Shown in pieces: positions 32,300 to 50,117 of a DNA stretch of 64,000 bases; position 1 is the stretch's first letter, and each line of letters begins with the position of its first letter. The notes below the pieces were generated by a model. It had not been told where the DNA came from. It worked only from the letters and a program-made list of their open reading frames with translations, and ran no database searches. Source of the stretch: Hydrogenophaga sp. (lineage in GTDB: Bacteria; Pseudomonadota; Gammaproteobacteria; Burkholderiales; Burkholderiaceae_C); contig NZ_JADMJO010000004.1 of NCBI RefSeq assembly GCF_018780385.1, positions 1 to 64,000 of the forward strand, given 5' to 3'. The position numbers and the translations under genes are program-made.

Positions 32300-33484
32300 A
32301 TGCACCACGGCATCAAGAAACTCCTCCTGCTCGGCGCTGGCCATGCCCACGTGCATGTGCTGGCCAGCCTGACGCAACACCGCCCCGCCGATCTGGACGT
32401 GACGGTGCTCACGCCCTATGCCCACCAGACCTACAGCGGCATGACGCCCGGCTTCGTGGCCGGCCACTACGCCGAGGCCGACTGCCGCATTGAACTGGAG
32501 CCGCTGGTGCGCGCGGCCGGCGCGCGCTGGGTGCGGGGACGCTGCACCGGTATCGATCCGGCGACCAATACCGTGAGCGTGGCGGCTGGAGGCGGCGCGC
32601 AAGGCGTGCCCGCTTCACTGGCCTTTGACGAGCTGTCCATCGACACCGGCGCGGTGATCGACCGCGCCCGCCTGGAAACCGACATGCCGGGCGCGGCCAC
32701 TCATGCACTCGCCGTGCGCCCCATTGAGGCCTTCGCCCAGCTCTGGCCCCAGGTGCTGGCACTCGCGCAGCAAAAGCCGGTGTCGCTCGCGGTGGTGGGT
32801 GCGGGTGCGGCGGGCATCGAACTCATCTTCGCCGCCGAGCAGGGCATTCGCGAGCAGGGCATGCCGGGCGCACGCTTCACGCTCATCACCGGTGGCCCGG
32901 AGGTGGCCGACAACTACCGGCCGGCGGTGCAACGCAAGGTGCTGCGCCAGTTGAAGCGGCGCGGCATCACCGTGCTGCGCGAAGCCTGTGTGGGCATTGG
33001 TCCAGGCGAGGTGATGCTGGGCAACGGCGCGCGGCTGGCCTGCGACGTGCCGCTGCTGGCCATCGGCACCCACGCACCACCCTGGCTGCAGGGCAGCGGT
33101 CTGGCCTTGTCGGCATCCGGGCAGGTGCTGGTCAACGCATTTCAGCAAAGCACCAGCCATCCCCATGTGTTTGCCGCAGGCGATGTGGCCAGCCGAGCCG
33201 ATGGACCGCACGCCAGAAGTGGTGTGTACGCGGTGCGCGCCGGCCCGCCGCTGGCGCACAACCTGCTGGCGTTTCACCAGCGCAAGCCCCTCAAGCCACA
33301 CCAGCCGCCGACAAACACGCTCAACCTGTTGTCGTGCGGCACCGGCCACGCCATTGCGAGTTATGGAGCCCTGAGCCTGGAGGGCGCCTGGGTCTGGCGC
33401 TGGAAAGACCGCATCGACCGCGGTTTCATCGAGCGCTACCGCGTGGGCCGGGCCGCTCAGGCCTCCGGCGAACCGGTGTCCTGA
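32300..33484 (+). CDS. FAD/NAD(P)-dependent oxidoreductase of the SelD-associated (NDH-2-like) family
   Basis: 394 aa. It opens with a dinucleotide fold (KLLLLGAGHAHVHVL), followed by YSGMTPGFVAGHY, SIDTGAVID, a second Rossmann motif VVGAGAAGIEL and the FAD-contact AAGDVAS with GVYAVRAGPPLAHNL. This is the pattern of the pyridine-nucleotide oxidoreductase family found fused to the N-terminus of SelD in cyanobacteria and other taxa (TIGR03169, by memory). Here it is a separate gene, 2.4 kb from selD, on the opposite strand. A role in selenium handling is inferred from family and context. The last 28 bp overlap the convergent next gene. Confidence 0.85.
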   Translation: MHHGIKKLLLLGAGHAHVHVLASLTQHRPADLDVTVLTPYAHQTYSGMTPGFVAGHYAEADCRIELEPLVRAAGARWVRGRCTGIDPATNTVSVAAGGGAQGVPASLAFDELSIDTGAVIDRARLETDMPGAATHALAVRPIEAFAQLWPQVLALAQQKPVSLAVVGAGAAGIELIFAAEQGIREQGMPGARFTLITGGPEVADNYRPAVQRKVLRQLKRRGITVLREACVGIGPGEVMLGNGARLACDVPLLAIGTHAPPWLQGSGLALSASGQVLVNAFQQSTSHPHVFAAGDVASRADGPHARSGVYAVRAGPPLAHNLLAFHQRKPLKPHQPPTNTLNLLSCGTGHAIASYGALSLEGAWVWRWKDRIDRGFIERYRVGRAAQASGEPVS

Positions 33485-33867
33485 TGGCCCTGCTCCAGCG
33501 CCTTGCGAGCCGCTGCAGCCAGGGCCTCATAACGCTGGCGAAATGCGTCCAGCTCGTCCTGCTCGAGTTCCTCAAGGTCCAGCAACGCGAGGTGCGCGCC
33601 CTTGGTGGCCCGGATCAACTCATCGATCTTGATCTGCAAAGCCTCGGAATCGCGGTTCTGCGTGTTCTGGATCAGGAACACCATGAGAAAGGTGACGATG
33701 GTGGTGCCGGTGTTGATCACTAGCTGCCAGGTGTCGCTGAAACCAAACAGCGGCCCGGTGACCAACCAGACCACGATCACCGCAGCGGCGAGCATGAAGG
33801 TCTTGGGACGCCCGCTCGTCCGGGCAATGCTCTTCGCAAAGTTGGAATACCAGGCCCGATTGTTCAT
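33457..33867 (-). CDS. Low-affinity iron permease family protein
   Basis: 136 aa from ATG 33867, which is preceded by an excellent AGGAGGAATTTCAAC leader; the frame is open a further 34 codons upstream without a better signal. Two hydrophobic segments (TFMLAAAVIVVWLVTGPLFGF and LVINTGTTIVTFLMVFLIQNTQNRD) followed by a helical, acidic tail match the low-affinity iron permease (Fet4-like) small family. Actual iron transport by these short proteins is not established. Convergent overlap of 28 bp with the oxidoreductase. Confidence 0.85.
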   Translation of the reverse strand: MNNRAWYSNFAKSIARTSGRPKTFMLAAAVIVVWLVTGPLFGFSDTWQLVINTGTTIVTFLMVFLIQNTQNRDSEALQIKIDELIRATKGAHLALLDLEELEQDELDAFRQRYEALAAAARKALEQGHQDTGSPEA

Positions 33868-33951
33868 GTTGAAATTCCTCCTGTAACGTGGGGGCGGTCC
33901 GCCGCCAACCGCAGCATTCTTCACCGCTTCGTCACCCGACCATACAACGCC

Positions 33952-34806: not shown

Positions 34807-35502
34807 TCAGCAGCCCAGTTGTTCGGCCAGGTGCACCAGGCTGCGGGCGTGAAACGTGTTGGCCGCATCGGGCGACACGTCCTTGGGGTGCTTCGCGCCA
34901 AACTCCAGCGCCCGCTCGATGTAGGCCGTGCGCAGGCCGCAAGCCCGTGCCGCCGCGAGGTCTTCCTGATGGGCGGCCACCAGCATCACATCGTGCGGCT
35001 CCACGTCAAACACACGAGCCACGCCGAGGTAGGTGGCGGGGTCGGGCTTGTAGGCACGGAACACCTCGGCCGAGAGCACGCAGTCCCACGGCAGACCTGC
35101 GCGCTTGGCCATGTTGGTGAGCAGGCCGATGTTGCCGTTGGACAGACTGCAGATGGTGTGCCGCGCCTTCAGGCGCGTGAGCCCGGCCACCGTGTCGGGC
35201 CACGGGTCGAGCCGGTGCCAGACCTTGTTGAGGTGCCGCTTCTGCGCTTCGGTGAGTGAGGTCAGGCCGAACGTGGGCAACAGGTCGTCGAGGATCAGGC
35301 GGTGCAGATCGTCGATCAGCGTCCAGCCCAGTTCACCCGAGCGCACACGTTGCATGGCCGGCTGGTAGCCCGCGCGCCAGGCGAGCGCAAAGGCATCGGC
35401 ATCCACCTGCGGATACAGCGCAGCCACCTCGCGCACGATGCTGCCGTGCCAGTCGACCACGGTGCCGAAGATGTCGAAGGCGAGGATGGGGGCGTGGGTC
35501 AT
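34807..35502 (-). CDS. HAD-superfamily hydrolase, type II haloacid dehalogenase family
   Basis: 231 aa from ATG 35502, which overlaps the ridA-like stop by 4 bp; an open frame further upstream is antisense shadow. Nucleophile Asp10 in FDIFGTVVD, then motif II SLSNGN, motif III Lys in RAYKPDPATY, and VAAHQEDLAAARACG near the end, all as in L-2-haloacid dehalogenase-type HADs. Many members are phosphatases or have unknown substrates. It is the last gene of the senB-selD-ridA-HAD run; its coupling to selenium genes is the main clue to function. Confidence 0.88.
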   Translation of the reverse strand: MTHAPILAFDIFGTVVDWHGSIVREVAALYPQVDADAFALAWRAGYQPAMQRVRSGELGWTLIDDLHRLILDDLLPTFGLTSLTEAQKRHLNKVWHRLDPWPDTVAGLTRLKARHTICSLSNGNIGLLTNMAKRAGLPWDCVLSAEVFRAYKPDPATYLGVARVFDVEPHDVMLVAAHQEDLAAARACGLRTAYIERALEFGAKHPKDVSPDAANTFHARSLVHLAEQLGC

Positions 35503-35882
35503 GGGCGTTTGAAGGCCGTGACCTCGATCTCGATTTTCATGCGCGGATCGAGCAGGCCCGCGGTGATCATCATGGCCGCCGGGCGCGCTGTGCCCAGGTG
35601 TTTTCTCAGCACCGGCCAGCAGGCTTCGAAGTCGGCACCCATGGGCAGCACGTAGTTCACGCGCACCACGTCGTCCAGGCTGGAACCCGCTTGCTTGAGC
35701 GCGGCCGCGATGTTCTGCATGCACTGCTCGGCCTGCTCCACCACGTTGTCTGAAATCCTCATGGTGGCGTAGTCAAAACCCGTGGTGCCGGAGACGAAAA
35801 CCCAGTCACCCGCGACCACGGCACGCGAATACCCGATCTGCTCTTCAAACGGCGAGCCGGAGCTGATGCGTTGGCGCTCCAT
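35499..35882 (-). CDS. RidA/YjgF family protein
   Basis: 127 aa. Typical Rid features: a GDWVFVSGTTGFDY beta region, QAEQCMQNIAAALKQAGSSLDDVVRVNYVLP, and a C-terminal KIEIEVTAF strand. The catalytic Arg of classical RidA (usually in a late PARxx motif, here TARPAAMM) appears to be present, so imine/enamine deaminase activity is possible. It starts 3 bp after the selD stop and overlaps the HAD gene by 4 bp, so it is almost certainly in the same transcript as senB and selD. Confidence 0.9.
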   Translation of the reverse strand: MERQRISSGSPFEEQIGYSRAVVAGDWVFVSGTTGFDYATMRISDNVVEQAEQCMQNIAAALKQAGSSLDDVVRVNYVLPMGADFEACWPVLRKHLGTARPAAMMITAGLLDPRMKIEIEVTAFKRP

Positions 35883-35885
35883 GGC

Positions 35886-36959
35886 TCAGCGCACTTCCAG
35901 GCGCACGCCTTCGGCGGCGGGCGCCACGATCTCGCCGATGTCGGCGGCGCCGGCAAAACCGTGCTTCTCGAAGATCGCCAGCACCGCGTCCACCGCTTCG
36001 GGATCGCAGGCCACCAGCAGGCCACCGCTGGTCTGGGGGTCGGACAACAGGGCCTGGTCCACTGGCTGCAGGCCGTCGCCCAAACGCACCTCGTGGCCGT
36101 AGGCGGCCCAGTTGCGGCCCGAGGCACCGGTGACCATGCCGGCGGCGGCGAGATCGCGCACGCCAGCGATCATCGGCACACGGGCCATGTCGATGCGCAC
36201 GGTGGTGTTGGAGCCACGCGCCATTTCCATCACGTGGCCGGCCAAGCCAAAGCCGGTGATGTCGGTGAGCGCATGCACGCCGTCCAGTGCGGCCAGATCG
36301 GGGCCGGGGGTGTTGAGCTTGGTGGTGTTGGCAATCATCTGCGCGTAACCCTCAGCGCTCAGCGCGTCCTTCTTCAAAGCGGCCGAGAGCACGCCCACAC
36401 CAATCGGCTTGCCCAGTATCAGGCGGTCGCCCACTTTCGCGTCGGCGTTGCGCTTCACGCGCTTGGGGTGCACCAGGCCCAGGGCCACCAGGCCGTAGAT
36501 GGGCTCGACCGAGTCGATGGTGTGGCCACCCGCGATCGGAATGCCGGCGGCGCGGCACACGTCCTGCCCGCCCTGGAGAATCTTGCCGATGGTCTCGGTG
36601 GAGAGCACGTTGATGGGCATGCCCACCAGGGCCAGCGCCATGATGGGCGTGCCGCCCATGGCGTACACGTCGCTGATGGCGTTGGTGGCGGCGATGCGGC
36701 CGAAATCGTACGGGTCGTCCACGATGGGCATGAAGAAATCGGTGGTGGCGATCAGTGCCTGCTCGTCGTTGAGCTGGTAGACCGCCGCGTCGTCCGCCGT
36801 CTCGATGCCGACCAGCAACTCCTTGGGCATCGGCATGGCCGCCGTGCCTTTCAGGATTTCACTGAGCACGCCGGGCGCGATCTTGCAGCCGCAGCCGCCG
36901 CCGTGCGAGAGGCTGGTGAGGCGGGGTTGGGTGGCGGCGGTGGGGATGGGTGCGTTCAT
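35886..36959 (-). CDS. selD: Selenophosphate synthetase (SelD / SenC)
   Basis: 357 aa. It makes selenophosphate from selenide and ATP. The glycine-rich N-terminus GGGCGCK provides catalytic Cys23 (not selenocysteine) and Lys26; ATP/metal motifs follow (TTDFFMPIVDDPYDFGRIAATNAISDVYAMGG and GGHTIDS, DITGFGLAGH, LSDPQTSGGLL). Usually SelD feeds selenocysteine or 2-selenouridine, but no selA, selB or mnmH is in the window. It directly follows senB (48 bp, SD GGAGA), so it corresponds to SenC of the selenoneine pathway described in Variovorax. It could also serve other selenium uses in the cell. Confidence 0.93.
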   Translation of the reverse strand: MNAPIPTAATQPRLTSLSHGGGCGCKIAPGVLSEILKGTAAMPMPKELLVGIETADDAAVYQLNDEQALIATTDFFMPIVDDPYDFGRIAATNAISDVYAMGGTPIMALALVGMPINVLSTETIGKILQGGQDVCRAAGIPIAGGHTIDSVEPIYGLVALGLVHPKRVKRNADAKVGDRLILGKPIGVGVLSAALKKDALSAEGYAQMIANTTKLNTPGPDLAALDGVHALTDITGFGLAGHVMEMARGSNTTVRIDMARVPMIAGVRDLAAAGMVTGASGRNWAAYGHEVRLGDGLQPVDQALLSDPQTSGGLLVACDPEAVDAVLAIFEKHGFAGAADIGEIVAPAAEGVRLEVR

Positions 36960-37007: not shown

Positions 37008-37976
37008 TCAGTGCAGCTCGTGCAACAGGGCCAGCAGGGTGGTCCGTTCGATGCGCGGATCGAACAGCGGCGCGCGGGCTTCACATTGTGCGTGCAGGGC
37101 GGTCAGCCTGCCAGCCGGCTCGCCCATGCCCGCACGGCAGGCGCGCAAGGCCTGCACCAGTGCCGGCACATCGCCCGGCGCAAAGTAACCACCGTAGTCG
37201 GCCCCCAGCATGCCCACGTTGCCGTCGATGCGCGAGGCCAGCACGGGCGTGCCACCGAGCACGGCTTCCATCAGCACATGGGCCCCGCCCTCCATGCGGC
37301 TGGTGTGCACCAGCAGGTGGGCGCGCTGCATGCGCGAGCGCGTGGCGCCATGGGGCAGGCCACCGAGCCAGCGGTAGTGCGGGCAGGCCTGCGCGGTCGC
37401 TCGGGCAGCCTCGCCCAGTGCGGGGTCGATCGCGGCACCGATGTGGTCGATGCGGATGCCCTCGTCAGCGCGCAGCAGGCGCGCCGCTTCAAACAGGGTC
37501 TGCGGCCATTTTTCGTCGCGCAGGTGGCCCACCATCACCACCCGCAGGTGCGCCGTGGTCTTGGCCAGTGTCTGGCGGCGCGTGCCCGACTGGAACACCA
37601 CGCGGGATTTGTCGCGCAGCGCCTCGGGTAGCGCCAGCGGACCCTGCTCCTGCAGCACGATGAGCCGGTGCGCAAGCGCCAGCGAACGCTGGGCGCTCGC
37701 ATCCGACGCGATGTCGCGGTAGAGGTCGGTGCCGGTCAGCGCCAGCACCAGCGGGCGATCGGGATGCGCCCGCACCCACGCGGCCACCGATGCGGCCGAG
37801 CGCCGCGCGTGCAGGGCCAGCAACACATCGCCCTCATCGCCTTCGGACCACGCCTGCGCCACCCTCACCCGATAATGGCCCGAGAGCATGCGCGCCCAGC
37901 GGCGCGCGGTTTGCCAATTGCCGTTGTTGGCTTCGGCCACGGCCGGCGTGACGATGCACAGGGAAGGTTTTTTCAT
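37008..37976 (-). CDS. senB: Selenosugar synthase SenB (TIGR04348-type glycosyltransferase)
   Basis: 322 aa from ATG 37976 (MKKPSLCIVTPAVAEANNGNW). GT4-like: NNGNWQTARRWARML near the start, LVLALTGTDLYRD, VVMVGHLRDEKWPQTLF, HYRWLGGLPHG and the C-terminal sugar-nucleotide region EGGAHVLMEAVLGGTPVLAS. This matches the family next to selD shown in Variovorax to make a selenosugar from selenophosphate and a UDP-sugar. It precedes selD by 48 bp. Its start codon overlaps the divergent senA start codon by 2 nt, so one of the two starts is probably assigned too far upstream. Confidence 0.88.
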   Translation of the reverse strand: MKKPSLCIVTPAVAEANNGNWQTARRWARMLSGHYRVRVAQAWSEGDEGDVLLALHARRSAASVAAWVRAHPDRPLVLALTGTDLYRDIASDASAQRSLALAHRLIVLQEQGPLALPEALRDKSRVVFQSGTRRQTLAKTTAHLRVVMVGHLRDEKWPQTLFEAARLLRADEGIRIDHIGAAIDPALGEAARATAQACPHYRWLGGLPHGATRSRMQRAHLLVHTSRMEGGAHVLMEAVLGGTPVLASRIDGNVGMLGADYGGYFAPGDVPALVQALRACRAGMGEPAGRLTALHAQCEARAPLFDPRIERTTLLALLHELH

Positions 37977-39168
37977 GGATGTGAACCGGTCGTCGATTGT
38001 GTGCGATGCACCTGCGGGCGCGCTGTCCACCGCGGACATGACCCGCCACGGTGGCGGGCCAACGCTGGCCGGTGCGCTGGTGGAGGCGCGCGAGCGCACG
38101 CTGCGGCAGTTCGCGGCGCTGGAGGCGGCGCTCGGCCCCGCCCTGCGCGTGCCCTGCACGCCCGAGTTGAACCTGCCGCTGTGGGAGCTGGGACACGTCG
38201 GCTGGTTTGCCGACTGGTGGATCGCTCGCAACCCGCAGCTCGGAAGCGGCGTGCAGGCGGACCCGCTGGTGGCCCGCCGCGCCGCGCGCCAGGGCCTGCG
38301 TGGCATCGACGCCGATGCGCTCTACGACTCCAGCGCCGTGCCGCACGACCGGCGCTGGCAGTTGGACCTGCCAGATGCCCACGCCACACGAGCCGACCTC
38401 TCGGCCAGTCTGGATCAAACGCTGGCGCTGCTGCGCGACGCCCCCGACGACGACACCGGCCTCTACTTCTTCCGCCTCGCCCTGTTCCACGAAGACATGC
38501 ACGCCGAGGCGGGCGTCTACATGGCGCAGGCGCTGGGCATCGACGTGGGCCACCGGCCCATGGCCGTTCACGTGGAGCCTGGCGAAGCCAGCGTGCCCGC
38601 CACCGCCTGGCGCCTGGGCTGGGTCGGCCCGGGCTTTGCCTTCGACAACGAACTCGGCGCGCACGTGGTGGCGGTCAACGCCTTCGAGATCGACACACGC
38701 GCCGTCACCTGGGCGCGCTACCTGCCGATGGTGGACGCTGGCCTGGCCGCGGTGCCGCGCTACCTGCGGCGAACACCCGGCGGTTGGCAGGTGCAGCGTT
38801 TCGGCACCTGGCAAGCGCTGGACCTGCAGGCCGCGGCCTGCCACCTCGGCGCGCAGGAAGCACGCGCCTGGTGCCGCTGGGCCGGGCGGCGCCTGCCGAC
38901 CGAAGCCGAGTGGGAAGTGGCCGCGCACACGGTGCCGGGCTTCGCCTGGGGCGAGGTCTGGGAATGGACCGCGAGCACCTTCGCACCCTTCCCTGGCTTC
39001 GCGCCCCACCCCTACCTGGACTACTCCCAACCCTGGTTCGACGGCCGCCCGGTGCTCAAGGGCGCGAGCACCGCGACCCACCCGCGCATGCGCCACCCCA
39101 GGTACCGCAACTACTTCACCGCGGAACGCAATGACATCTTTGCGGGCTTTCGCAGCGCGCGCGCCTGA
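37975..39168 (+). CDS. senA: Selenoneine synthase SenA (EgtB-like non-heme iron enzyme)
   Basis: 397 aa from ATG 37975; ATG 38038 (MTRHGGGPTLAGALVEA) would give 376 aa and leave ~60 bp for a promoter. A DinB-like N-terminal domain provides the iron facial triad His74 (ELGHVGWF), His172 and His176 (HxxxH in LFHEDMHAE), and a C-terminal FGE-sulfatase fold (RRLPTEAEWEVAAHTV, EVWEWTASTFAPFPGF) ends with ERNDIFAGFRSARA. This is the EgtB-related family that joins hercynine to a selenosugar to form the selenoneine precursor. Divergent from senB; converges on an AraC gene with 3 bp between stops. Confidence 0.88.
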   Translation: MDVNRSSIVCDAPAGALSTADMTRHGGGPTLAGALVEARERTLRQFAALEAALGPALRVPCTPELNLPLWELGHVGWFADWWIARNPQLGSGVQADPLVARRAARQGLRGIDADALYDSSAVPHDRRWQLDLPDAHATRADLSASLDQTLALLRDAPDDDTGLYFFRLALFHEDMHAEAGVYMAQALGIDVGHRPMAVHVEPGEASVPATAWRLGWVGPGFAFDNELGAHVVAVNAFEIDTRAVTWARYLPMVDAGLAAVPRYLRRTPGGWQVQRFGTWQALDLQAAACHLGAQEARAWCRWAGRRLPTEAEWEVAAHTVPGFAWGEVWEWTASTFAPFPGFAPHPYLDYSQPWFDGRPVLKGASTATHPRMRHPRYRNYFTAERNDIFAGFRSARA

Positions 39169-39171: not shown

Positions 39172-39966
39172 TCATCGACCTTTGCGGTAGACGTCGGGTG
39201 TCACGCCGGTCAAGCGGCGGAACATCGCGATGAAGGCCGAGGTGGACGCGTAGCCCAGGTCCTGGGCGATGTGCTCCACCTTCTCCCCGGCTTCCAGCAG
39301 GGCCATGGCCTTCACCGCGCGCAGCCGCTGCCGCCATTCGGCCAGCGTCATGCCCAGCTGGCTCTGGCAGCGGCGCATGAGCGTGCGTTCGGTGGTGTGC
39401 ACGAAGGCCGCCCAATCGGCCACCGACCGTGGATCACCGGGCGCCGCTTCCAGCGCCCGCAGCACGGGCGCGAGCAGCGGGTCATCCGAGGCGGGCAGAT
39501 AGCTGCCCGTGACCGGAGCCACCTCCAGTTGGTCCATCACCACCTGCAGCAGCCGGTCGTGCGACGCGCCCTGCGCCAGCGCGGGCGGTGTCTGCCGCAG
39601 ATGCTCCAGCAAGCCGTGCAGCAAGGGACTGACGCTGAGGGCGCACACCTGGGCTGGCATGCGGTCCGCGCGCTCGGGCACCACGTAGACCGAACAGAAG
39701 GACGCTTCCTGACGGTTCATACCGGTGTGGTCCACGTCCGGCGGCAACCACAGGCCGTATTGCGGCGGAATCAAATAGTGCTCGGTGGCGAGTTGCACCT
39801 CCATCACACCGCTGAAGGCGTAGACGAACTCGCCCCAGTGGTGGCGGTGGTGCGGGTACGCCGCGTCGGCGGGCATCTGCGCCGCGCGGAAGACGATTTC
39901 TCCGGGCAGTGCGTCGGTGAATGGCGCGGTCTGCAAATGTCTGGCGGGGGCGCGGGCGCGGGGCAT
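39172..39966 (-). CDS. AraC family transcriptional regulator
   Basis: 264 aa. N-terminal cupin-like sensor (PHHRHHWGEFVYAFSGVMEV, LIPPQYGLWLPPDVDHTG) and C-terminal double HTH (VHTTERTLMRRCQSQLGMTLAEWRQRLRAVKAMALL, HIAQDLGYASTSAFIAMFRRLTGVTPDVYRKG). The divergent neighbour is a DMT transporter, so control of that exporter is the simplest guess. It could also reach the convergent senA, but nothing in the sequence shows this. Confidence 0.92.
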   Translation of the reverse strand: MPRARAPARHLQTAPFTDALPGEIVFRAAQMPADAAYPHHRHHWGEFVYAFSGVMEVQLATEHYLIPPQYGLWLPPDVDHTGMNRQEASFCSVYVVPERADRMPAQVCALSVSPLLHGLLEHLRQTPPALAQGASHDRLLQVVMDQLEVAPVTGSYLPASDDPLLAPVLRALEAAPGDPRSVADWAAFVHTTERTLMRRCQSQLGMTLAEWRQRLRAVKAMALLEAGEKVEHIAQDLGYASTSAFIAMFRRLTGVTPDVYRKGR

Positions 39967-40006
39967 TTTGACGGTCCGGGGGGATGGTTTGTCTGATTTT
40001 CGTTAT

Positions 40007-40020
40007 CTGCTGCGCAGCAG
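40007..40020. promoter_or_regulatory. 14-bp palindrome between AraC and DMT transporter genes
   Basis: CTGCTGCGCAGCAG is a perfect inverted repeat in the 96-bp divergent intergenic region, 43 bp before the transporter GTG and 41 bp before the AraC start. It is a candidate operator or overlapping hairpin; AraC regulators more often use direct repeats, so the link is tentative. Confidence 0.4.
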
Positions 40021-40062
40021 TCAAACGGACAATCACCCTCCGATCAACCCCCGATTGCACCT

Positions 40063-41010: not shown

Positions 41011-41131
41011 TGGACGTCACGAACCGACCTCGCGCCTGAGAGGACACAGCGCCAGCGGGCGCGCTGCGGCGCATGATGGGCGAGAGACAGGGTTTGTCTG
41101 CTCCTTGACATTCCCGCCATTGGCGTCCGAA

Positions 41132-44100
41132 ATGGCATCCATGCAAACAGCGCAGCTCAGTGGCGACGCGGAAGAACAACTGCACAGAAACCAGTTGCTG
41201 CTGAAGATGGCTGGGCGGGCCGCACGCCTGGGTGGCTGGACGTTCGCCGTTGAGTCACAAACGCTGGTGTGGTCCGACGAAATCTGCGAGATCCATGACA
41301 GACCCGCCGGCTACCTACCGGCACTGGACGAAGGCATTGGCTACTACCTGCCCGAGTACCGCGGCATGATCACGCGCACCGTCGAACGCTGCCTGAGCGA
41401 GGGCACGCCGTTCGACTTCGAGGCCGAACTGACCACAGCCACTCAACGCAGGATCTGGGTGCGTGCCGTCGGCGAAGCCGTGCGGGACACCAGCGGCCAG
41501 ATCATCGGCTTTCAGGGCGCGTTGCAAGACATCACGGGCTTGCGGCTCCACGAACTCGAGCGACATGCGCTGGCCACCAAGCTCAGCGCCACGCTGCAGA
41601 ACATGTCCGACGCCTTCTTCACCCTGAACAGGAACTGGCACATCACCTTCGTCAACGAAGAGATGACGCGAACGGTGAACCGAAGGCGCGAGGACCTGTT
41701 GCACAAGTGCTTGTGGGATGTCTTCCCGGGCACGGAGAACAGCCTTTTCCACAGGAGCTTCCAGCGCGCCGTCGAGACGGGAAAGGTGGCCACGGAAGTG
41801 GGGTTCTATGAACCGCTGGGCAAGTGGTTCGAGTTGCGCTCGCACCCGACCGACGACGGTGTGGCGGTGTATTTTCAGGACGTCACGCAAAAGCGCAGAG
41901 ACGACGAGCAGTTGCGCTTGCTGCAGGCCTGCGTGGAGCGCATGAACGACATCATCGTGGTCACCGAGGCAGAGGCCGTGGGAGGACTGTGGCCCAGGGT
42001 GCTCTATGTCAACAAGGCCTTCGAGCGGCACACCGGCTACCGGCCGCACGAGATCATTGGCAAGACACCGCGCATCCTGCAGGGCCCCCGCACGCAGCGC
42101 GACGTGCTCGACCGCATCCGCGCCAGCCTGAAGCGTTGGGAGCCGGTGCGCGAGGAGATCCTCAACTACACAAAAAACGGCGAGGAAATCTGGCTGGAGC
42201 TCGATATCGTGCCGGTTGCCGATGCCGCCGGCCAGTACACGCACTGGATTTCGATCGAACGCAACATCACCGAGCGCAAGCGTGCCGCCGAGGCTCTGCG
42301 CCAGAAGGACAACCTGCTGAAGGTGGGCGGCCGCGTGGGCAAGGTCGGTGGCTGGACGGCCGTGCCATCAGTCAACGCCGTGGAGTGGTCCGACGAGATC
42401 TACCTCATGCTGGACTGGCCCCGCACCTCACCCCCCACGCTGGGCGAGTTCCTGTCCATCTTTTCCTCCGAGTCGCGCGCATCGTTCAGAGCCGCGCTGG
42501 ACACGTGCGTTGCGCGCGGCACGAGCTTTGACCGCGAGTTCCAGATCACCACCTGCGCGGGTGAGCCGAAGTGGGTGCGCGTGGCCGCAGAGCCCGCCCT
42601 GGCCGAGGGCGGGCAAGTGAACAGCGTGCACGGCGCGCTGCAGGACACCACGTCCATGAAGCAGGTGGAGGAACGCCTGGTGGAGCAGGCCGCGCTGCTC
42701 GACAAGGCCCAGGATGCCATCTGGGTGCTCAACCTGGACGGCACCGTGGCCTTCTGGAACCGGAGCGCCGAGCGCATTTACGGCTGGACGGCCGAAGAGG
42801 TCCGGCACCGTGCCGCGCGCGAGCTGCTGTTCAACAACCCCAACGTCTACGACCGTTGCCGGCAGACGGTGATGGAAGAAGGGGAATGGGTGGGTGAGAT
42901 CGAGCACAAGACCCAGGACGGCAACCACATCCTGCTGGTGTCGCGATGGACCCTGGTGAGGGACGAAGCGGGCCAGCCCCGCTCCATCCTGGCCATCAAC
43001 ACCGATGTGACGCACCAGAAGCTCCTGGAGCAGCAGTTCCTGCGCGCGCAGCGCATGGAGAGCATCGGCACGCTGGCCGGGGGGATTGCGCACGACCTGA
43101 ACAATGTGTTGGCGCCGATCATGATGTCGATCGAGCTGCTCAAGGACTCCCTGCCCAACCCGGACGACCAGGCGGTGCTCAAGACCATCGAGGTGAGTGC
43201 GAGGCGCGGCGCCGACATGATCAAGCAGGTGTTGTCGTTCGCCCGGGGCGTCGAGGGCAAACGGCACGAGGTGAGAATCCGCGACGTGCTGGGCGACCTC
43301 GATCAGATCCTGAGAGAGACCATCTCCAAGAACATTTCCATCGTCTCCACCGTCGCCCCCGACCTGTGGCAGGTGCAGGCCGACCCGACGCAACTGCAGC
43401 AGGTGCTGATGAACCTGTTCGTCAATGCCCGCGACTCGATGCCCAACGGTGGGCGCATCGCGATCTCGGCCGAGAACATGACGGTGGACGCGCACTACGC
43501 CGCGATGAACATCGAGTCGCGTGTGGGCGCCTACGTGAAGATCGAGGTCGAGGACAACGGCGCCGGCATCCCGCCGGCCATCCAGGACCGTGTCTTCGAC
43601 CCGTTCTTCACCACCAAGCCGGTGGGCGAGGGAACGGGTCTGGGGCTGGCCACCACGCTGGCCATCGTCAAGAGTCACGGGGGGTTCGTGCGCCTGTACA
43701 GCGAGGTGGACAAAGGCACGCGCTTTCGCATCTACCTGCCCGCCGATCCAGATGCCGTCAGCACCCAGAGCGGCGACGCAAAGCCCTCCGTGCCACGGGG
43801 CAACGGCGAACTGATCATGGTGGTGGACGACGAGGCCGCCATCCGGCAGGTCACCCGTCAGACCCTGGAGGCCTATGGCTACCGGGTGATCGTTGCCTCC
43901 AACGGCGCGGAGGCGGTGGCCCTGTATGCGCAGGACATCCAGGGCATTGATCTGGTGCTGACCGACATGATGATGCCCGTGATGGACGGCCCGGCGACCA
44001 TCCAGGCGCTGCGGCAGATCAACCCGTTGGTCAAGCTCATCGGCGCCAGCGGCATCTCCCAGAACGGCAAGGTCGCCCGTGCTTCCGGTTCGGGCCTCAA

Positions 44101-44170
44101 ACACTTCCTGCCCAAGCCCTACACCGCCGAAGTCATGCTCCGGCTGATCGACACGGTGCTCAAAGGCTAG
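41132..44170 (+). CDS. Soluble multi-PAS hybrid histidine kinase
   Basis: 1012 aa from ATG 41132 (ATG 41141 also possible); the frame is open into the previous gene. About five PAS/PAC modules fill residues ~20-635 (each ending in a GALQDIT, ITERK or DVTHQK-type linker). Then a HisKA domain with phospho-acceptor His654 in [13 protein letters not shown], HATPase_c ([43 protein letters not shown]), and a receiver domain with Asp945 ([12 protein letters not shown]) and Lys in PKPYT. There are no membrane segments, so it senses something cytoplasmic. One PAS has GKTPRILQG where LOV domains have NCRFLQ: no flavin-binding Cys, so not a photoreceptor. No separate response regulator is adjacent. Confidence 0.92.
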
Positions 44171-44177: not shown

Positions 44178-45179
44178 TCAGGCCGGCGCCCAGAACACAC
44201 TGAACCAGCCTTGTGCGTCGCTCCAATGGCGCGTCTGGCCGAAGCCGGCGTCCTGCAACAAGGCCTCGAAGGCCTCGGGCTGCCACTTGTAAGAACTCTC
44301 GGTGTGCAGACGCTCGCCCTGCGCAAACACCCGCTCGCCGTCGGGCCAGCGCACGGTCTGCCGCACAGTGGCTTCCAGGTGCATTTCAATGCGCGACAGC
44401 GGCGTGTTGAACAGCCCCACGTGGCGCCAGGCGGCTGGCGCGAAATCGGCGTCGAGCACACGGTTCACGTTGAGCAGCAGGTTGCGGTTGAAGGCCGCGG
44501 TCACCCCCAGCGCATCGTCGTAGGCGGGCTCCAGCACGGCCTTGGGCTTGACGCGGTCCACACCGATCAGCAGGCCGCCGCCTTCGCCACCCGAGCGGCA
44601 CACCGCATGCGCCTGTTTGAGCAAGGCAAGCGCCTCTTCAGGGTTGAAATTGCCGATGCTCGAACCCGGGTAGAACACCACGCGTGGCGCCTGCGCCGCC
44701 GGGCCGTCGGCCAGCCAGTCGGCCACCTCGGCGCCCAAGGCGAAGCGGCTTGAGAAATCCATGCCCAGGCCGAGCATGGCCAGCGAAGGATGTTGCTTCT
44801 GCAATTGCTGCAAGGTGTCGCGCAGGTAGTCCACCGAAATGTCGATGGCCACATAGGCCGCCGGACGCAGCACCGGAAACAGGCGTGCGGCCTTGGCGCA
44901 GCTGCCGGCGCCCAGGTCGAGCAGGATCGAGCCACCGGGCACCACGCGCGCCATGTCGGCGCCGTGCTGCTGAAAGATCGCTGCTTCGGTGCGCGTGGGG
45001 TAGTACTCGGGCAGCTCGGTGATGGCGTCGAACAGGCGCGAGCCCAGCGCGTCGTACAGGAACTTCGGCGCAATGCTCGCGGGCGTCGCCATCAGGCCGG
45101 CCACGAGCTCGGCACGCATCGCTGCGCGGTCCTCGTGGTGGAGCTGGATGAAGGGAGGGGCCGGGGTCTGTATGGGCAT
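44178..45179 (-). CDS. egtD: L-histidine N-alpha-methyltransferase EgtD
   Basis: 333 aa. It trimethylates histidine to hercynine with SAM. TPASIAPKFLYDALGSRLFDAI near the N-terminus, SAM motif ILLDLGAGSCAKAARLF, YPGSSIGNFNPEEA (the Asn used to bind the histidine alpha-amino group in mycobacterial EgtD), and HTESSYKW near the end (Glu/Ser for the imidazole) are all present. Hercynine is the shared acceptor for both EgtB and SenA in this window. Divergent from the PhnD-like gene across a 157-bp control region. Confidence 0.95.
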   Translation of the reverse strand: MPIQTPAPPFIQLHHEDRAAMRAELVAGLMATPASIAPKFLYDALGSRLFDAITELPEYYPTRTEAAIFQQHGADMARVVPGGSILLDLGAGSCAKAARLFPVLRPAAYVAIDISVDYLRDTLQQLQKQHPSLAMLGLGMDFSSRFALGAEVADWLADGPAAQAPRVVFYPGSSIGNFNPEEALALLKQAHAVCRSGGEGGGLLIGVDRVKPKAVLEPAYDDALGVTAAFNRNLLLNVNRVLDADFAPAAWRHVGLFNTPLSRIEMHLEATVRQTVRWPDGERVFAQGERLHTESSYKWQPEAFEALLQDAGFGQTRHWSDAQGWFSVFWAPA

Positions 45180-45336: not shown

Positions 45337-46200
45337 ATGTTCAAAAACGCCTCCCGCACCCTGCGCGCACTCTTCACCTGCGCCGTGCTGTCCGTCACCG
45401 CCGCCGCGCACGCGCAAACCGTGTTCCGCGTCACCACCATCCCCGAAGAAGCTGCCACCGAGCAGATCCGCAAGTTCACGCCGCTGGCCGCCTACCTGGA
45501 GAAGGAACTGGGTGTGAAGGTTGAGTTCACCCCGGTGAGCGACTACCCCGCCGCCGTGGAGGCGCTGGTCAACAAGAAGGTCGATCTGGTCTGGTTCGGT
45601 GGTTTCACCTTCGTGCAGGCCAACCTCCGCTCGGGCGGCAAGGTCGTGCCGCTGGCCCAGCGCGAAGAAGACACCAAGTTCCAGTCGGTCTTCATCGCCA
45701 AGACCGATTCGGGCATCAAGAGTCTGGCCGACATGAAGGGCAAGCAGGTCTCGTTCGGCTCGCAGAGCAGCACCTCGGGCCACCTGATGCCGCGCAGCTT
45801 CCTGCTGGCGGCCAACATCGAACCCGAGAAGGATTTCCGCCGCATCGCCTACAGCGGCGCGCACGACGCCACCATCGCCTCGGTGGTCAGTGGCAAGGTC
45901 GACGCGGCCGCGCTGGACATCACGGTCTGGAAAAAGTTCGTCGCCGAGAACAAGGTCGATACCAAGGCGGTTGACGTGTTCTTCACCACGCCGGGTTACT
46001 TCAACTACAACTGGTCGGTGCACGCGGACACCCCGGTCGCGATGCAGCAGAAGATCAAGGCCGCGCTCATCGGCCTGTCGCCGGCCAACCCCGAGCACGC
46101 CGAGATCCTCAAGCTCAACCGCGCCACGCGCTACCTCGAAACCAAGCCCGAGAATTACAAAGGCCTGGAAGCCGCCGCCCGCAGCGCCGGTCTGCTCTGA
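45337..46200 (+). CDS. PhnD-like substrate-binding protein, putative selenate/selenium ABC transporter
   Basis: 287 aa with signal peptide (LRALFTCAVLSVTAAAHAQ). PhnD/PtxB-type fold: FRVTTIPEEAATEQIRKFTPLAAYLEKELG, VDLVWFGGFTFVQAN, SFGSQSSTSGHLMPR, RIAYSGAHDATIASVVSGKVDAAALD. This closely resembles the family labelled putative selenate ABC transporter substrate-binding protein (recalled as a TIGRFAMs entry; not checked). Phosphonate uptake is less likely because no C-P lyase or phosphonatase gene is present. It is the first gene of a four-gene transporter flanked by egtD and egtB. Confidence 0.82.
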   Translation: MFKNASRTLRALFTCAVLSVTAAAHAQTVFRVTTIPEEAATEQIRKFTPLAAYLEKELGVKVEFTPVSDYPAAVEALVNKKVDLVWFGGFTFVQANLRSGGKVVPLAQREEDTKFQSVFIAKTDSGIKSLADMKGKQVSFGSQSSTSGHLMPRSFLLAANIEPEKDFRRIAYSGAHDATIASVVSGKVDAAALDITVWKKFVAENKVDTKAVDVFFTTPGYFNYNWSVHADTPVAMQQKIKAALIGLSPANPEHAEILKLNRATRYLETKPENYKGLEAAARSAGLL

Positions 46201-46216: not shown

Positions 46217-47050
46217 TTGAACATCGAACTGCAAGGCGTCTCGGCACGCCACCCCGCGGCGCGGGCAGGCCATGCACCCGCGCTGCGCTCGCTCGATGTG
46301 CAGATCGCCTCGGGCGAGCAGGTGGCCGTGATCGGGCCTTCGGGCGCGGGCAAGACCACGCTGCTGCAGGTCATGGCCTGTGCGCTGCCGCCGGCCGAAG
46401 GCCGGTTGCGGCTCGATGACCGCGACCCGTGGACACTTCCGCGCGCCGCGCTGCAGCGCCAGCGCGGCCAGCTTTTTCTGGCTCCGCAGGTGCCCCCGCT
46501 GCCACCGCGCCAGCGCGTGGTCACCTCGGTGCTGGCGGCCCGCCTGCCCGCCATGGGTTTGCTGGCCAGCCTGCGCTCGCTCTTCTACCCCGACGATATT
46601 CCAGCCGCCTTCGACGCGCTGGACCACTTTGACCTGGCCGACAAGCTCTTCGAACGGGTGGACCGCCTCTCGGGCGGCGAACGCCAGCGCGTGGGCCTGG
46701 CGCGCGCGTTGCTCGCGCCGGCCCGGCTCTGGCTGATCGACGAGCCGCTCTCGGCGCTGGACCCCACACGCTCGAAACAGGCCGTGGCCGCGCTGCAGGA
46801 CGGCGCCCGCGAACGCGGTGTGACGCTGGTGGCCACGCTGCACCAGGTGGACGTGGCGCTGGCCCACTTCCCGCGCATCGTCGGTTTGAGAGACGGCCAG
46901 CTGGCCTTTGACCTGCCGGCCGCCGAGGTCACACAGGATCGCCTGGCACGCCTGTACGACCAGTTCGAACACGAGCTGCGCGGCGAGGTGCCGGTGGTGG
47001 TGGATGCGCAGCCACCCGCGTCGCAGCCTGCGGTGATGCACTGCCGCTGA
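46217..47050 (+). CDS. PhnC-like ABC transporter ATP-binding protein
   Basis: 277 aa from TTG 46217, the only plausible start near the domain (LNIELQGVSARHP); the frame is open upstream into the previous gene. Walker A GPSGAGKTT, Q-loop LAPQVPPLPPRQ, signature LSGGERQRVGLARALL, Walker B LWLIDEPLSALDP and H-loop TLHQVDVAL. It has a non-conserved acidic/Pro tail. It energises the two PhnE-type permeases that follow. Confidence 0.88.
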   Translation: MNIELQGVSARHPAARAGHAPALRSLDVQIASGEQVAVIGPSGAGKTTLLQVMACALPPAEGRLRLDDRDPWTLPRAALQRQRGQLFLAPQVPPLPPRQRVVTSVLAARLPAMGLLASLRSLFYPDDIPAAFDALDHFDLADKLFERVDRLSGGERQRVGLARALLAPARLWLIDEPLSALDPTRSKQAVAALQDGARERGVTLVATLHQVDVALAHFPRIVGLRDGQLAFDLPAAEVTQDRLARLYDQFEHELRGEVPVVVDAQPPASQPAVMHCR

Positions 47051-47051
47051 C

Positions 47052-47894
47052 ATGAACACGGCGGTCCGTCCCTTGCGCAGCGCCCCCGCGCGCGACCCCG
47101 CATGGACGGGCCGCGTGTTCTGGCTCGGCCTGTGCGCCGTGCTGTTGTGGCCCCTCATGGTGGCCACCGAGTTCAAGCCCTGGATCTTCCTGGAGCCCGA
47201 CAACCTCAAGATCAGCCGCCAGTTCATCGCCACGTTCTGGCCACTGGTGGTCAACGCGGAGTTTTTGAGCATGATCGCCCGCGAGACCTGGCGCACCGTG
47301 GCCATGGCCACCGCCGGCGTCACGCTCGCACTGGTGGTGGCGATCCCGCTCGCGCTGATGTCGGTTCGCCTGCTCTCGATCTCGGCACTGTCGGGCCGCA
47401 TGGCGCGCGGACCATTCTGGTTCCGGCAGTCGGTGCGCTGGCTGCTGATCGTGTTGCGCAGCGTGCCCGAGCTGGTGTGGGCGCTGGTGTTCGTGCGCGT
47501 GGTCGGCCTGGGTCCCACGGCCGGCGTGCTGGCCATCGCCCTCACCTACGGCGGCATGCTGGGCAAGGTGTACGGCGAGATTCTGGAGAGCGGCGAATCA
47601 CACGCCACCGAGAACCTGCTGCGCAACGGCAGCTCTCGCCTGCAGGCTTTTTTCTATGGACTGCTGCCGACCAACGCGGCCGAGCTCACCAGCTACACCG
47701 TGTACCGCTGGGAATGCGCGATCCGCTCGTCGGTGGTGCTCGGCTTCGTGGGTGCGGGTGGCCTGGGTCAACAGCTCGACAACTCGATGAAGATGTTCAA
47801 CGGCGGTGAGGTCGCCACCATGCTGCTGGTGTTTGTGTTGCTGGTGGCGCTGGCGGATCGGGTGAGTTCGTGGTTGCGAAAGTCGCTCGGATGA
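47052..47894 (+). CDS. PhnE-like ABC transporter permease (first)
   Basis: 280 aa, about six hydrophobic segments. The BPD loop is YGEILESGESHATENLLRNGSSRLQAFFYGLLP, with SSVVLGFVGAGGLGQQL downstream and the RSVPELVWALVFVRVVGLGPTAG signature of PhnE/PtxC permeases. It starts 1 bp after the ATPase stop, and its own stop overlaps the second permease start by 4 bp. Confidence 0.88.
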   Translation: MNTAVRPLRSAPARDPAWTGRVFWLGLCAVLLWPLMVATEFKPWIFLEPDNLKISRQFIATFWPLVVNAEFLSMIARETWRTVAMATAGVTLALVVAIPLALMSVRLLSISALSGRMARGPFWFRQSVRWLLIVLRSVPELVWALVFVRVVGLGPTAGVLAIALTYGGMLGKVYGEILESGESHATENLLRNGSSRLQAFFYGLLPTNAAELTSYTVYRWECAIRSSVVLGFVGAGGLGQQLDNSMKMFNGGEVATMLLVFVLLVALADRVSSWLRKSLG

Positions 47895-48715
47895 AACCCA
47901 CCGCCGCCAACCCACCTTACAAGCTGCCGCCGCGTTTGTTCGACGCGCGCTGCAAGGCCTGCTGGTTCATGGCCGGCCTGATCGTGCTGGTGGTCGCCAG
48001 CTTCGCTTCGCTGGATCTGCAGTGGGCGCAGTTCCTCTCGTTGGACGCCGCGCGCAGCATGGGCCGTTTCGTGGCCGAGTTTTTCCCGCCCGACCTCTCG
48101 CCGGTGTTCGTGAAGAAGGTCGCCATCGGCGCCTGGGAAACGCTGGCCATGTCGGCGCTGGGCACGGCGTTGGCGGCGGCAGCAGGCCTCGCGCTGGCCC
48201 TGCCCGCGAGCCGCCTGCACCAGGCCGACGCGGCCTGGGCCCGAGCTCCCACGCGCTGGTTGCTCAACGCACTGCGCAGCATTCCCGAGCTGGTGTGGGC
48301 AGCACTCCTGCTCATCTCGGCCGGCCTGGGCCCGTTTGCCGGCACGCTGGCGCTGGCCTTTCACACGACCGGTGTGCTGGGCCGCCTGTTTGCCGAAGCC
48401 ATCGAAAACGCACCACCCGGCCCCGGCGAGGCGCTGCGCGTGCAAGGCGTGGGCAATGGCCGCGTGTTCCTCTACGCCACGCTCCCCCAGGTGTTGCCGC
48501 AGCTCATGAGCTACACGCTGTACCGCTGGGAAAACAACATCCGCGCTGCCGCGGTGCTGGGCGTGGTGGGCGCGGGCGGCCTGGGTCAGCTGCTGGCCTT
48601 CCACATGGGCCTGTTCCAGATGAACAAGACCGCCACCATCCTGAGCGCCATGTTGCTCATGGTGGCGGTGGTGGATGCGTCGAGTCACGGAGCCCGGCGT
48701 TTGCTCACGCGGTGA
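47891..48715 (+). CDS. PhnE-like ABC transporter permease (second)
   Basis: 274 aa from ATG 47891, inside ATGA shared with the previous stop. It parallels the first permease: RSIPELVWAALLLISAGLGPFAG, FAEAIENAPPGPGEALRVQGVGNGRVFLYATLP, RAAAVLGVVGAGGLGQLL. The two permeases therefore look like a diverged duplication forming a heterodimeric channel. Downstream there is a GC-rich repeat, then the convergent egtB. Confidence 0.88.
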   Translation: MKPTAANPPYKLPPRLFDARCKACWFMAGLIVLVVASFASLDLQWAQFLSLDAARSMGRFVAEFFPPDLSPVFVKKVAIGAWETLAMSALGTALAAAAGLALALPASRLHQADAAWARAPTRWLLNALRSIPELVWAALLLISAGLGPFAGTLALAFHTTGVLGRLFAEAIENAPPGPGEALRVQGVGNGRVFLYATLPQVLPQLMSYTLYRWENNIRAAAVLGVVGAGGLGQLLAFHMGLFQMNKTATILSAMLLMVAVVDASSHGARRLLTR

Positions 48716-48746
48716 GTGATCCGGCGCCGGGCCGCCCCAAGCCGGA

Positions 48747-48800
48747 TCAGCCCCCTCGGGGGGCAGCGACCCGCGCAGCGGCTGAGCGTGGGGGCGATGA
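48747..48800. repeat. GC-rich extragenic repeat element overlapping the egtB 3' end
   Basis: Contains CCCCCTCGGGGGG then CAGCGACCCGCGCAGCGG and TGAGCGTGGGGGCG, an imperfect inverted repeat of the kind seen scattered between Comamonadaceae genes (recognition from memory). The egtB frame reads through it, so it supplies the C-terminal tail SSPPRSAAARVAAPRGG. A looser relative is at 16232-16294. Confidence 0.55.
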
Positions 48801-50117
48801 CTTGGCGAGCCTGAGCCCGCTGAACTGCCAGCGCGCATCGGTCGGAAAGAAATTGCGGTAGCTCGCGCGGATGTGCGAGGCCGGTGTGGCGCACGAACCG
48901 CCGCGCAGCACGGTCTGGTTGACCATGAACTTGCCGTTGTACTCACCCACCGCGCCTTCCATGGGCTGGTAGCCCGGGTAGGCGCTGTAGCTGCTCGTGG
49001 TCCATTCCCACACGTCACCGTACATCTGCAGCAGGCCACTGCCCGCCGCGCGCGCGGGCATGGGGTGCAGGGCACCGGCGTCTTGCAGGTTGCCCTGCTC
49101 CGGCAAAGCGGTCGCAGCCGCCTCCCACTCGGCTTCGGTGGGCAGGCGGGCACCTGCGTGCTCAGCATGCGTGGCCGCGCTCCAGCGCGCAAACGCATCG
49201 GCCTCGAAGTAGCTCACGTGCACCACCGGCGTGTGCGGGTCCAGTGGCATCTCGCCGTGCAGGGTGAACACGGTGGGCAAGGCGTTGGCGTCTTGCGGCA
49301 GGGTCCAGTAGAGCGGCGCCCGAACACCTTGGGTGCGCACCCAGTCCCAGCCGGCTGACAGCCACCACCGAGGCTCGGCATAACCACCATCGCGCACGAA
49401 ATCCAGCCACTCGCCATGGGTCACCAGCCGGTTCATCAACGCGTGCGGCTCCAGCCACTGGCGGTGGCGCGGCGTTTCGTTGTCGAATGCAAAACCCTCG
49501 CCGCGGTGGCCAATGTCGGTCAGGCCAGCTTCGCACGCGACCCAGCGCGCGGGCACGGGCGAAACCGACACCAGTGGCCACACGCGCTGGTAGGCCGGGC
49601 GCAGCGGGTTGATGGAGAGCAGGTGCTTGATGTCGGTGAGCAGCAGCTCCTGGTGCTGCTGCTCGTGGTGCAGGCCCATCTCGATCAGGCGCAAGGCGTC
49701 CAGGCTGTCGGTGCGCGGGATCAGCCGGGTGATGCGTTCGTCCACCTGCTCGCGCCAGCGCCACACCTCGGCCAGATCGGGCCGCGTGACCAAGCCGCGC
49801 TGGGGCCGCGGAAACTGCTCCCCCACGCCGTTGTAGTAGCTGTTGTAGAGCACGCGGAACGCGGGGTTGAAGGGCTTGAAGTCGGGCTCGAAGGGTTCGA
49901 GCACGAAGGTCTCGAAGAACCACGTCACGTGGGCGAGGTGCCACTTCGCGGGGCTGGCGTCGGGCATCGACTGGACCTGGCAATCCTCGGACGAGAGCGG
50001 CGCCGTGAGCGCACGCGTCTGATCGCGCACCGCCTGGTAGTGCCGCGCCAGCGCCGCGCGATCCGCATCGGGGCGCGGGCCCGCCGCTGCGATGGGCTGA
50101 GGTGAATGTTGTGGCAT
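48747..50117 (-). CDS. egtB: Ergothioneine biosynthesis protein EgtB (hercynylcysteine sulfoxide synthase type)
   Basis: 456 aa. The DinB-like domain carries iron ligands His63 (WHLAHVTWFF), His151 and His155 (HEQQH). The C-terminal FGE-sulfatase fold has ARLPTEAEWEAAA, GDVWEWTTSSYSAYPGY and SYRNFFPTDARWQFSGLRLAK. It joins hercynine to a thiol donor (cysteine or gamma-glutamylcysteine) with O2; egtA, egtC and egtE are not in the window, so the donor is undecided. The conserved core ends at RLAK; the last ~17 residues are encoded by the GC-rich repeat at 48747-48800. Confidence 0.93.
   Translation of the reverse strand: MPQHSPQPIAAAGPRPDADRAALARHYQAVRDQTRALTAPLSSEDCQVQSMPDASPAKWHLAHVTWFFETFVLEPFEPDFKPFNPAFRVLYNSYYNGVGEQFPRPQRGLVTRPDLAEVWRWREQVDERITRLIPRTDSLDALRLIEMGLHHEQQHQELLLTDIKHLLSINPLRPAYQRVWPLVSVSPVPARWVACEAGLTDIGHRGEGFAFDNETPRHRQWLEPHALMNRLVTHGEWLDFVRDGGYAEPRWWLSAGWDWVRTQGVRAPLYWTLPQDANALPTVFTLHGEMPLDPHTPVVHVSYFEADAFARWSAATHAEHAGARLPTEAEWEAAATALPEQGNLQDAGALHPMPARAAGSGLLQMYGDVWEWTTSSYSAYPGYQPMEGAVGEYNGKFMVNQTVLRGGSCATPASHIRASYRNFFPTDARWQFSGLRLAKSSPPRSAAARVAAPRGG

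Follow-up and report, generated by a model that had tools for sequence, protein, structure and literature searches.

The window analyzed here, a 64,000-nucleotide stretch of a Hydrogenophaga sp. genome (5.38 Mb in 161 contigs), carries between positions 32300 and 50117 a set of genes for selenoneine synthesis together with a four-gene importer of the ATP-binding cassette (ABC) type. The selenophosphate synthetase SelD/SenC (35886–36959, reverse strand) matched NF002098 with 546 bits (cut-off 299) and possesses a GGGCGCK motif. The selenosugar synthase SenB (37008–37976, reverse strand, start inferred) scored 435 bits against TIGR04348 (cut-off 300), and the selenoneine synthase SenA (approximately 38038–39168, forward strand, start inferred) scored 460 bits against NF041186 (cut-off 420). 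The senA gene is divergent from senB, with an intergenic gap of about 60 bp, provided that the inferred starts are correct. The histidine methyltransferase EgtD, which produces hercynine (44178–45179, reverse strand; TIGR03438, 354 bits, cut-off 291), and the sulfoxide synthase EgtB (48747–50117, reverse strand; TIGR03440, 553 bits, cut-off 360) flank the importer, whose genes are all transcribed on the forward strand: a periplasmic binding protein (45337–46200; TIGR04553, 355.7 bits, cut-off 250), a PhnC-like ATPase (approximately 46217–47050, start inferred; TIGR02315, 183–184 bits, below the cut-off of 266), and two PhnE-like permeases (47052–47894 and 47870–48715; TIGR01097, 196 and 260 bits, below and above the cut-off of 217, respectively). 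An initial annotation of the window had placed SenB, SelD/SenC, and SenA homologs at 35.9–39.2 kb and had described EgtD (44.2 kb) and EgtB (48.7 kb) as flanking a four-gene transporter; these positions and identities were borne out.

The chemistry of SenA, SenB, SelD, and EgtD is known from earlier work. Against the EgtB model, SenA reached only 168 bits, compared with its 460 bits against the SenA model, and among solved structures it matched SenA with 368 bits, OvsA with 104 bits, and EgtB with 78 bits. SenB matched the solved SenB structure 8jjn with 385 bits and retains a lysine aligned to the catalytic Lys158 (K158) as well as the EGGAHV motif, both named in PMC10891094. A selenophosphate synthetase above its cut-off and a source of hercynine, EgtD, the sole PF10017 match in the genome, complete the set. 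By sequence, the locus encodes selenoneine synthesis. EgtB and EgtD, both above their cut-offs, also point to ergothioneine. No match to EgtC of the gamma-glutamyl route lay above the cut-off in the genome (best 46 bits, cut-off 219); the ergothioneine route starting from cysteine needs no EgtC. The initial view of a combined selenoneine and ergothioneine locus thus stands for the sen genes, egtD, and egtB, but not for a complete ergothioneine route, of which EgtC was absent above cut-off (the search did not extend to EgtA and EgtE). The source genome encodes SelU outside the locus, and no SelA was found in it.

The binding protein is a full member of TIGR04553 ("putative selenate"), in line with the resemblance to this family noted initially, whereas its score against the PhnD model (170 bits) is below the cut-off of 261. 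With PhnC likewise below its cut-off, one of the two permeases above that of PhnE, and no match to the C-P lyase protein PhnJ in the source genome, the cassette does not qualify as a PhnCDE phosphonate transporter. No other PF12974 match in the genome is strong (229 bits for the binding protein, 40 bits for the next), and the closest named relatives of the protein, up to 97% identical, are from Hydrogenophaga genomes. TIGR04553 is a hypothetical equivalog of NCBIfam, and the family name is itself a prediction. Selenate specificity does not follow from membership, because both chains of the phosphite binder PhnD1, from Prochlorococcus and Synechococcus, also lie above the NCBIfam cut-off (337 and 302 bits). 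The profile placement, which had been proposed as a way to separate a selenium importer from a phosphonate or phosphite importer, therefore sets the protein inside TIGR04553 and below PhnD, but leaves phosphite binders in the same family.

The distribution of the binding protein was examined in two samples, 200 genomes of the host order and 398 of the host phylum (six genomes common to both), with genomes treated as independent in the statistics. In the order sample, the binding protein was found above cut-off in 45 genomes, SenB in 57, SelD in 143, PhnJ in 16, and EgtD in 85, one of these EgtD matches being below cut-off. The binding protein co-occurred with SenB in 26 genomes (p = 2e-6; p-values for the order are one-sided), with SelD in 40 (p = 0.002), and with EgtD in 35 (p = 6e-8), the last being the strongest tie in the order. 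In contrast, PhnJ accompanied it in four genomes, which amounts to no association (odds ratio 1.2, p = 0.5), and a phosphonate role through C-P lyase was rejected on this ground. The co-occurrence check that had been suggested, senB versus phn lyase genes, was thus decided for senB. In the phylum sample, the binding protein lay above cut-off in 34 genomes and SelD in 129; 32 of the 34 possess SelD, compared with 129/398 overall (odds ratio 44, p = 3.7e-15; the overlap was counted by eye and then tested statistically).

Gene neighborhoods gave a concordant picture. Stretches of up to 20 kb around the binding-protein gene were taken from 44 other order genomes and 28 new phylum genomes, and the window represented the source genome, giving 45 order loci in the linkage count. 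The markers, assigned by bit-score cut-offs, were selD, senB, selU, selA, selB, and TGA-containing fdnG; egtD, egtB, and senA were not counted, and a SelB of 69 bits in locus L148 was left out. Twelve lower-scoring TIGR04553 matches of the order search served as control loci, excluding a fragment of a true member (L056); they were deemed phosphonate-type by score and single-permease layout and were not scanned with PhnD models. A selenium marker was present on the fetched stretch in 13/45 order loci and 11/28 phylum loci (24/73), compared with 0/12 controls (p = 0.013). In nine linked loci, the part of selD closest to the binding-protein gene, as judged from alignment ends, is 105–300 bp upstream of it, either co-oriented or divergent; in two of the loci examined (L019 and L023) it lies 105–124 bp upstream on the same strand. 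The contexts are varied: egtD, senA, senB, and a fused SelD are near the importer in L003 and L145, senB and a fused SelD in L142, L144, and L146, a divergent selD-selU pair in L161, L164, and L165, and selA in L162, and in two loci of one genus (L027 and L045) a formate dehydrogenase-N gene with one in-frame TGA is found downstream, 5.5 and 4.2 kb from the binding-protein gene. For comparison of the arrangement, 80 named loci encoding closely related binding proteins were also retrieved; 54 of them have a selenium marker on the stretch and 60 have egtD, and among those with the full 20 kb, 36/38 are selenium-linked. The two unlinked full-length loci are L108, with a lone binding protein, and L130, in which SenA and EgtD were found but SenB and SelD were not. 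The importer is arranged with selenium genes far beyond chance, and co-occurrence and linkage together tie the TIGR04553 importer to selenium use.

The occurrence of the importer in selenoneine, selenouridine, and selenocysteine gene contexts suggests a general selenium importer and counts against an importer of ergothioneine or hercynine. Some relatives have selD-selU, selA, or a TGA-containing formate dehydrogenase gene as neighbors but no senB on the stretch retrieved; the importer therefore does not appear to be specific to selenoneine and probably supports the use of selenium more broadly. Import of a selenium compound for the sen locus, as first proposed, therefore remains the likely job of the cassette in view of co-occurrence and linkage, but not a job restricted to selenoneine.

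The nearest solved proteins to the binding protein are PhnD1 of Synechococcus and Prochlorococcus. For its AlphaFold model (mean pLDDT, predicted local distance difference test, of 86), Foldseek ranked the PhnD1 structures first by E-value with template-modeling (TM) scores near 0.6, whereas the open form of PtxB superposed better (TM 0.78); we attribute the low TM-scores to the closed state of the PhnD1 structures. The pocket was compared at 12 positions in an alignment of binding proteins 230–420 residues long (165/166). Among the anion-holding residues of PhnD1 described in PMC10284923, Tyr70, Ser145-Thr146-Ser147, His176, and the cap tyrosine Tyr224 are kept in the window protein. A three-residue exchange divides the 154 aligned family proteins: 97, including the window protein, have E37/D194/N223, 50 have the D/N/D pattern of PhnD1, and seven have others. 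Both patterns include selenium-linked loci, a marker gene being nearby for 15 of the 50 D/N/D proteins. Asn223 alone was considered as a mark of selenate and was dropped, given its swap with Asp194 and the existence of a selenium-linked Asp223 type.

The known ligands of PhnD1 give a guide to what this pocket would accept. Prochlorococcus PhnD1 binds phosphite at 0.051 µM (dissociation constant, Kd, 51 nM), methylphosphonate at 109 µM, and phosphate at 182 µM, a preference of about 3,500-fold for phosphite over phosphate, and phosphite is apparently held as a mono-anion whose P-H bond faces the cap tyrosine (PMC5700983). The affinity of Synechococcus PhnD1 proteins for phosphite is lower (1.7 and 2.8 µM in two rows of PMC10284923). 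The shapes of the candidate selenium anions can be set beside these data. At neutral pH, hydrogen selenite is a three-oxygen pyramidal mono-anion; in this it is like phosphite, and it should fit the pocket better than four-oxygen selenate. By this analogy we lean toward selenite rather than selenate, given a selenium ligand. Selenate as the cargo seems unlikely. The NCBIfam name would agree with it, and the proton-accepting aspartate of PhnD1 is asparagine in 97/154 proteins, which could suit a fully ionized anion. However, where this aspartate is asparagine a nearby asparagine is aspartate, so that the change looks like a compensated swap; moreover, the other pattern keeps the aspartate and includes the 15 marker-linked proteins mentioned above, and the discrimination of Prochlorococcus PhnD1 against phosphate is directed at a four-oxygen anion.

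Several observations weigh against a selenium importer. The p-values for co-occurrence ignore shared ancestry. A SelD match is missing from 5/45 order and 2/34 phylum genomes with the binding protein, and two of these (G159 and G195) also have no SenB or EgtD match; in another SelD-less genome, G338, rated 100% complete, the binding protein has lost the capping tyrosine and no transporter partner was found beside it. No marker was present on the fetched stretch in 49/73 genomes, some of these stretches being short. Two other protein clusters recur beside the cassette in 7 and 6 of the 44 order loci, compared with 6 for selD; by eye, they resemble members of large common families. Data on selenium binding or uptake were found in the literature for no TIGR04553 member, and phosphite, phosphate, and methylphosphonate are the ligands bound by the nearest solved relatives. 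Finally, PhnD2 of Pseudomonas putida, a possible member of the family that was later annotated as phosphonate/selenate, rose from 0.309 to 0.959 per cent of the exoproteome under phosphate depletion (PMC9426549), and a passage of PMC5082522 has it reduced in a phoBR mutant relative to the wild type in phosphate-depleted conditions; the same paper tables PhnD2 as unaffected by PhoBR, which speaks for a selenium role.

One alternative is that the importer takes up phosphite or another phosphorus compound and that its selenium-gene neighborhood is incidental. The nanomolar phosphite affinity of Prochlorococcus PhnD1, the near identity of the compared pocket residues, the PhnCDE-type parts of the cassette, and the increase of P. 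putida PhnD2 under phosphate depletion all fit such a role, but we consider it improbable: there is no C-P lyase association, PhnJ is absent from the source genome (phosphite dehydrogenase was not searched there), linkage to selD, selU, selA, and senB is recurrent, and picocyanobacteria that have PhnD1 but lack ptxD fail to grow on phosphite (PMC10284923). Import of an organic compound (ergothioneine, hercynine, selenoneine, or a selenosugar) would explain why the cassette is divergent from egtD in the window and in many close relatives and why EgtD is its strongest tie in the order, but is very improbable, in that eight genomes with both SelD and the binding protein show no EgtD match and no SenB above cut-off (two have a sub-cut-off SenB-like match), relatives adjoin selD-selU, selA, or a TGA-containing formate dehydrogenase gene, and the compared residues, only 12 positions, hold a small closed phosphite pocket. 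An ergothioneine importer, EgtUV, is already known.

A selenium role for the family would bear on the picocyanobacterial PhnD1 transporter. In a tree of 107 tips, with the control proteins and PtxB as the outgroup and about one in five of loci L062–L141 kept, PhnD1 falls inside the TIGR04553 clade. It shares a supported clade with the binding proteins of L142, L143, L144, and L146, which adjoin senB and a SelD fused to TIGR03169; 6 of the 15 other tips in the PhnD1 clade are selenium-linked. PMC1273633 describes a putative SelD of Prochlorococcus and Synechococcus that carries an N-terminal extension like NADH dehydrogenase, and this extension resembles the fused SelD beside senB in L142–L144 and L146. 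Three Prochlorococcus are among the organisms with an orphan SelD (PMC5029168). What the Prochlorococcus PhnDCE transporter does in vivo is stated to be unknown (PMC5700983), and PMC10284923 calls the PhnD1 transporter paradoxical: two Synechococcus strains fail to use phosphite, phosphate depletion does not significantly raise phnD1C1E1 expression, and the authors propose a constitutive phosphate transporter. The same paper reports that phnD1 adjoins tesA in picocyanobacteria. No selenium test of PhnD1 was found in the two papers searched for one. Among the best 120 of 7,988 protein-set matches to SenB, the named ones of which include Marinobacter, Polynucleobacter, and Hydrogenophaga, none was cyanobacterial, which does not settle whether picocyanobacteria have SenB. 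Tentatively, the whole TIGR04553 clade, including PhnD1CE of Prochlorococcus and marine Synechococcus, might be the missing high-affinity selenium importer of bacteria; selenite would then be recognized in the manner of phosphite, its selenium lone pair directed at the cap tyrosine in the position that the P-H bond of phosphite takes. We regard this extension as doubtful, and have lowered our estimate of it slightly, because PMC1273633 excludes the cyanobacterial SelD-like proteins from the likely true SelD orthologs.

The other genes of the locus include a pyridine nucleotide-disulfide oxidoreductase of TIGR03169 (32300–33484, forward strand; 323 bits, cut-off 310), a DUF4399 protein encoded on the forward strand between it and the next gene, a HAD type II hydrolase (34807–35490, reverse strand; TIGR01428, 162 bits, cut-off 125), and the product of 35499–35882 (reverse strand), which we call RidA-like only, since its 70 bits against TIGR00004 are below the cut-off of 106. 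The RidA and HAD proteins had initially been noted as partners that, like the transporter, are not part of the described three-gene pathway. They were found near SelD in only 3/57 and 8/57 loci holding SelD, respectively, and were rejected as core partners; they are better described as narrow accessories. SelD occurs with a TIGR03169-like domain in 27 loci. In 20 of these the two share a single reading frame; the seven in which they are separate include the window's closest relatives. Fusion of this kind is a good indication of joint function. The TIGR03169 oxidoreductase is the better candidate for a partner and may supply reduced selenium, a proposal for which we see even chances.

An AraC-family regulator (39172–39966, reverse strand; PF12833) adjoins senA and, together with a PAS histidine kinase, separates it from egtD in the source genome. 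The regulator is retained in L039, L062, and L063. The kinase, which has a receiver domain, occupies the interval 39984–44170 with a 351-residue open reading frame, and the pair is also present in L039; no kinase match of at least 100 bits was found in the 80 named loci. At 29281–31560, a VTT (DedA-like) membrane domain is fused to a mercuric-reductase-like oxidoreductase, and a close copy of this fusion lies near the cassette in L064, L071, L090, L099, and L145. DedA has reportedly been linked to selenite uptake in Cupriavidus. An Rfam search over 28000–54000 gave no matches at gathering scores. As for a shared DNA motif upstream of the cassette, a promising 8-mer proved to be two stretches, each limited to close relatives, and was discarded. 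Seven loci of one family (L154, L155, L158, L161, L162, L164, and L165) have a conserved leader about 25 bases before the binding-protein start, which on the reverse strand reads approximately CCGGTTCAATAGCGGAAAA.

Some loci depart from the usual cassette. In L074 (9234–15122), a lone binding protein lies between selA-selB upstream and other ABC-transporter-type genes, beside a nitroreductase, and the lone binding protein of L108 is also followed by other transporter-type genes. In L168, from a genome outside the class, two tandem copies of the binding protein precede the ATPase, beside selD. As to the enzymes, SenB was above cut-off with no EgtD match in 11/57 order genomes, suggesting that the selenosugar may be an end product or feed a use other than selenoneine. 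The SelD gene contains one in-frame TGA in 13/143 SelD-positive order genomes (e.g., G005, G012, G046, G055, G060, and G090), and the product is likely a selenoprotein SelD.

Given the gene identities observed, the conserved layout, and the genomic association between importer and selenium genes, we propose that the locus combines selenoneine synthesis with its own selenium supply, with a probability of roughly 0.75. The importer itself probably carries selenium, as judged from its gene contexts. The periplasmic protein encoded at 45337–46200 would capture a selenium oxyanion, most likely protonated selenite (HSeO3-), and the ATPase and two permeases would import it. The TIGR03169 flavoprotein may help to reduce the imported selenite, SelD would form selenophosphate, and SenB would convert this to a selenosugar. 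SenA would join the selenosugar to hercynine from EgtD, yielding selenoneine, and the same hercynine would also feed EgtB. The same importer would supply selenium for tRNA selenouridine through SelU and, in other bacteria, for selenocysteine.

According to PMC13188914 (2026), and similarly PMC9312934 (2022), no specific high-affinity selenium transport system of prokaryotes has been identified. As a bacterial importer dedicated to selenium, the cassette beside the selenoneine genes is a candidate that can be put to the test: in samples from one phylum, it is tied to selenium use and occurs beside genes for selenoneine, selenouridine, and selenocysteine. The selenium link of the family is not a new idea, because it is contained in the TIGR04553 name in databases and in a genome paper; in the open-access papers searched, we found no test or analysis of this link and no description of a transporter together with sen genes. 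The sen pathway was already known, and what is added here is the tie between importer and selenium, the choice of selenite, and the link to PhnD1. Should PhnD1 belong here too, there would be a role for a marine transporter that has been puzzling, and selenium would have a place in models of ocean picocyanobacteria.

The senABC pathway of selenoneine synthesis has reportedly been described in Variovorax paradoxus. The present locus resembles it in having SenA, SenB, and SelD/SenC homologs above curated cut-offs, with EgtD for hercynine. Set against that three-gene pathway (rather than against the Variovorax locus itself), it differs in the divergent orientation of senA relative to senB-selD and in having an AraC regulator, a TIGR03169 oxidoreductase, EgtB, and a four-gene importer beside the sen genes. 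The sulfate/thiosulfate ABC transporter of E. coli also carries selenite and selenate and is likewise an ABC route for selenium oxyanions (PMC3781023), but it is a sulfate system that selenium takes in passing. The binding proteins AioX (arsenite), ArrX (arsenate), and PtxB (phosphite) have the same fold as the window protein, and the solved AioX and ArrX show that this fold also holds oxyanions without phosphorus; they are, however, only about 20–29% identical to it, and PtxB is outside the TIGR04553 clade. The nearest solved relative is picocyanobacterial PhnD1 (PDB 5LQ5, 5LQ8, and 7S6G), which is 43% (7s6g) and 35% (5lq5) identical to the window protein, belongs to the same clade, and has the same anion-holding residues, but has D/N/D in place of E37/D194/N223, and the window cassette has two permeases.

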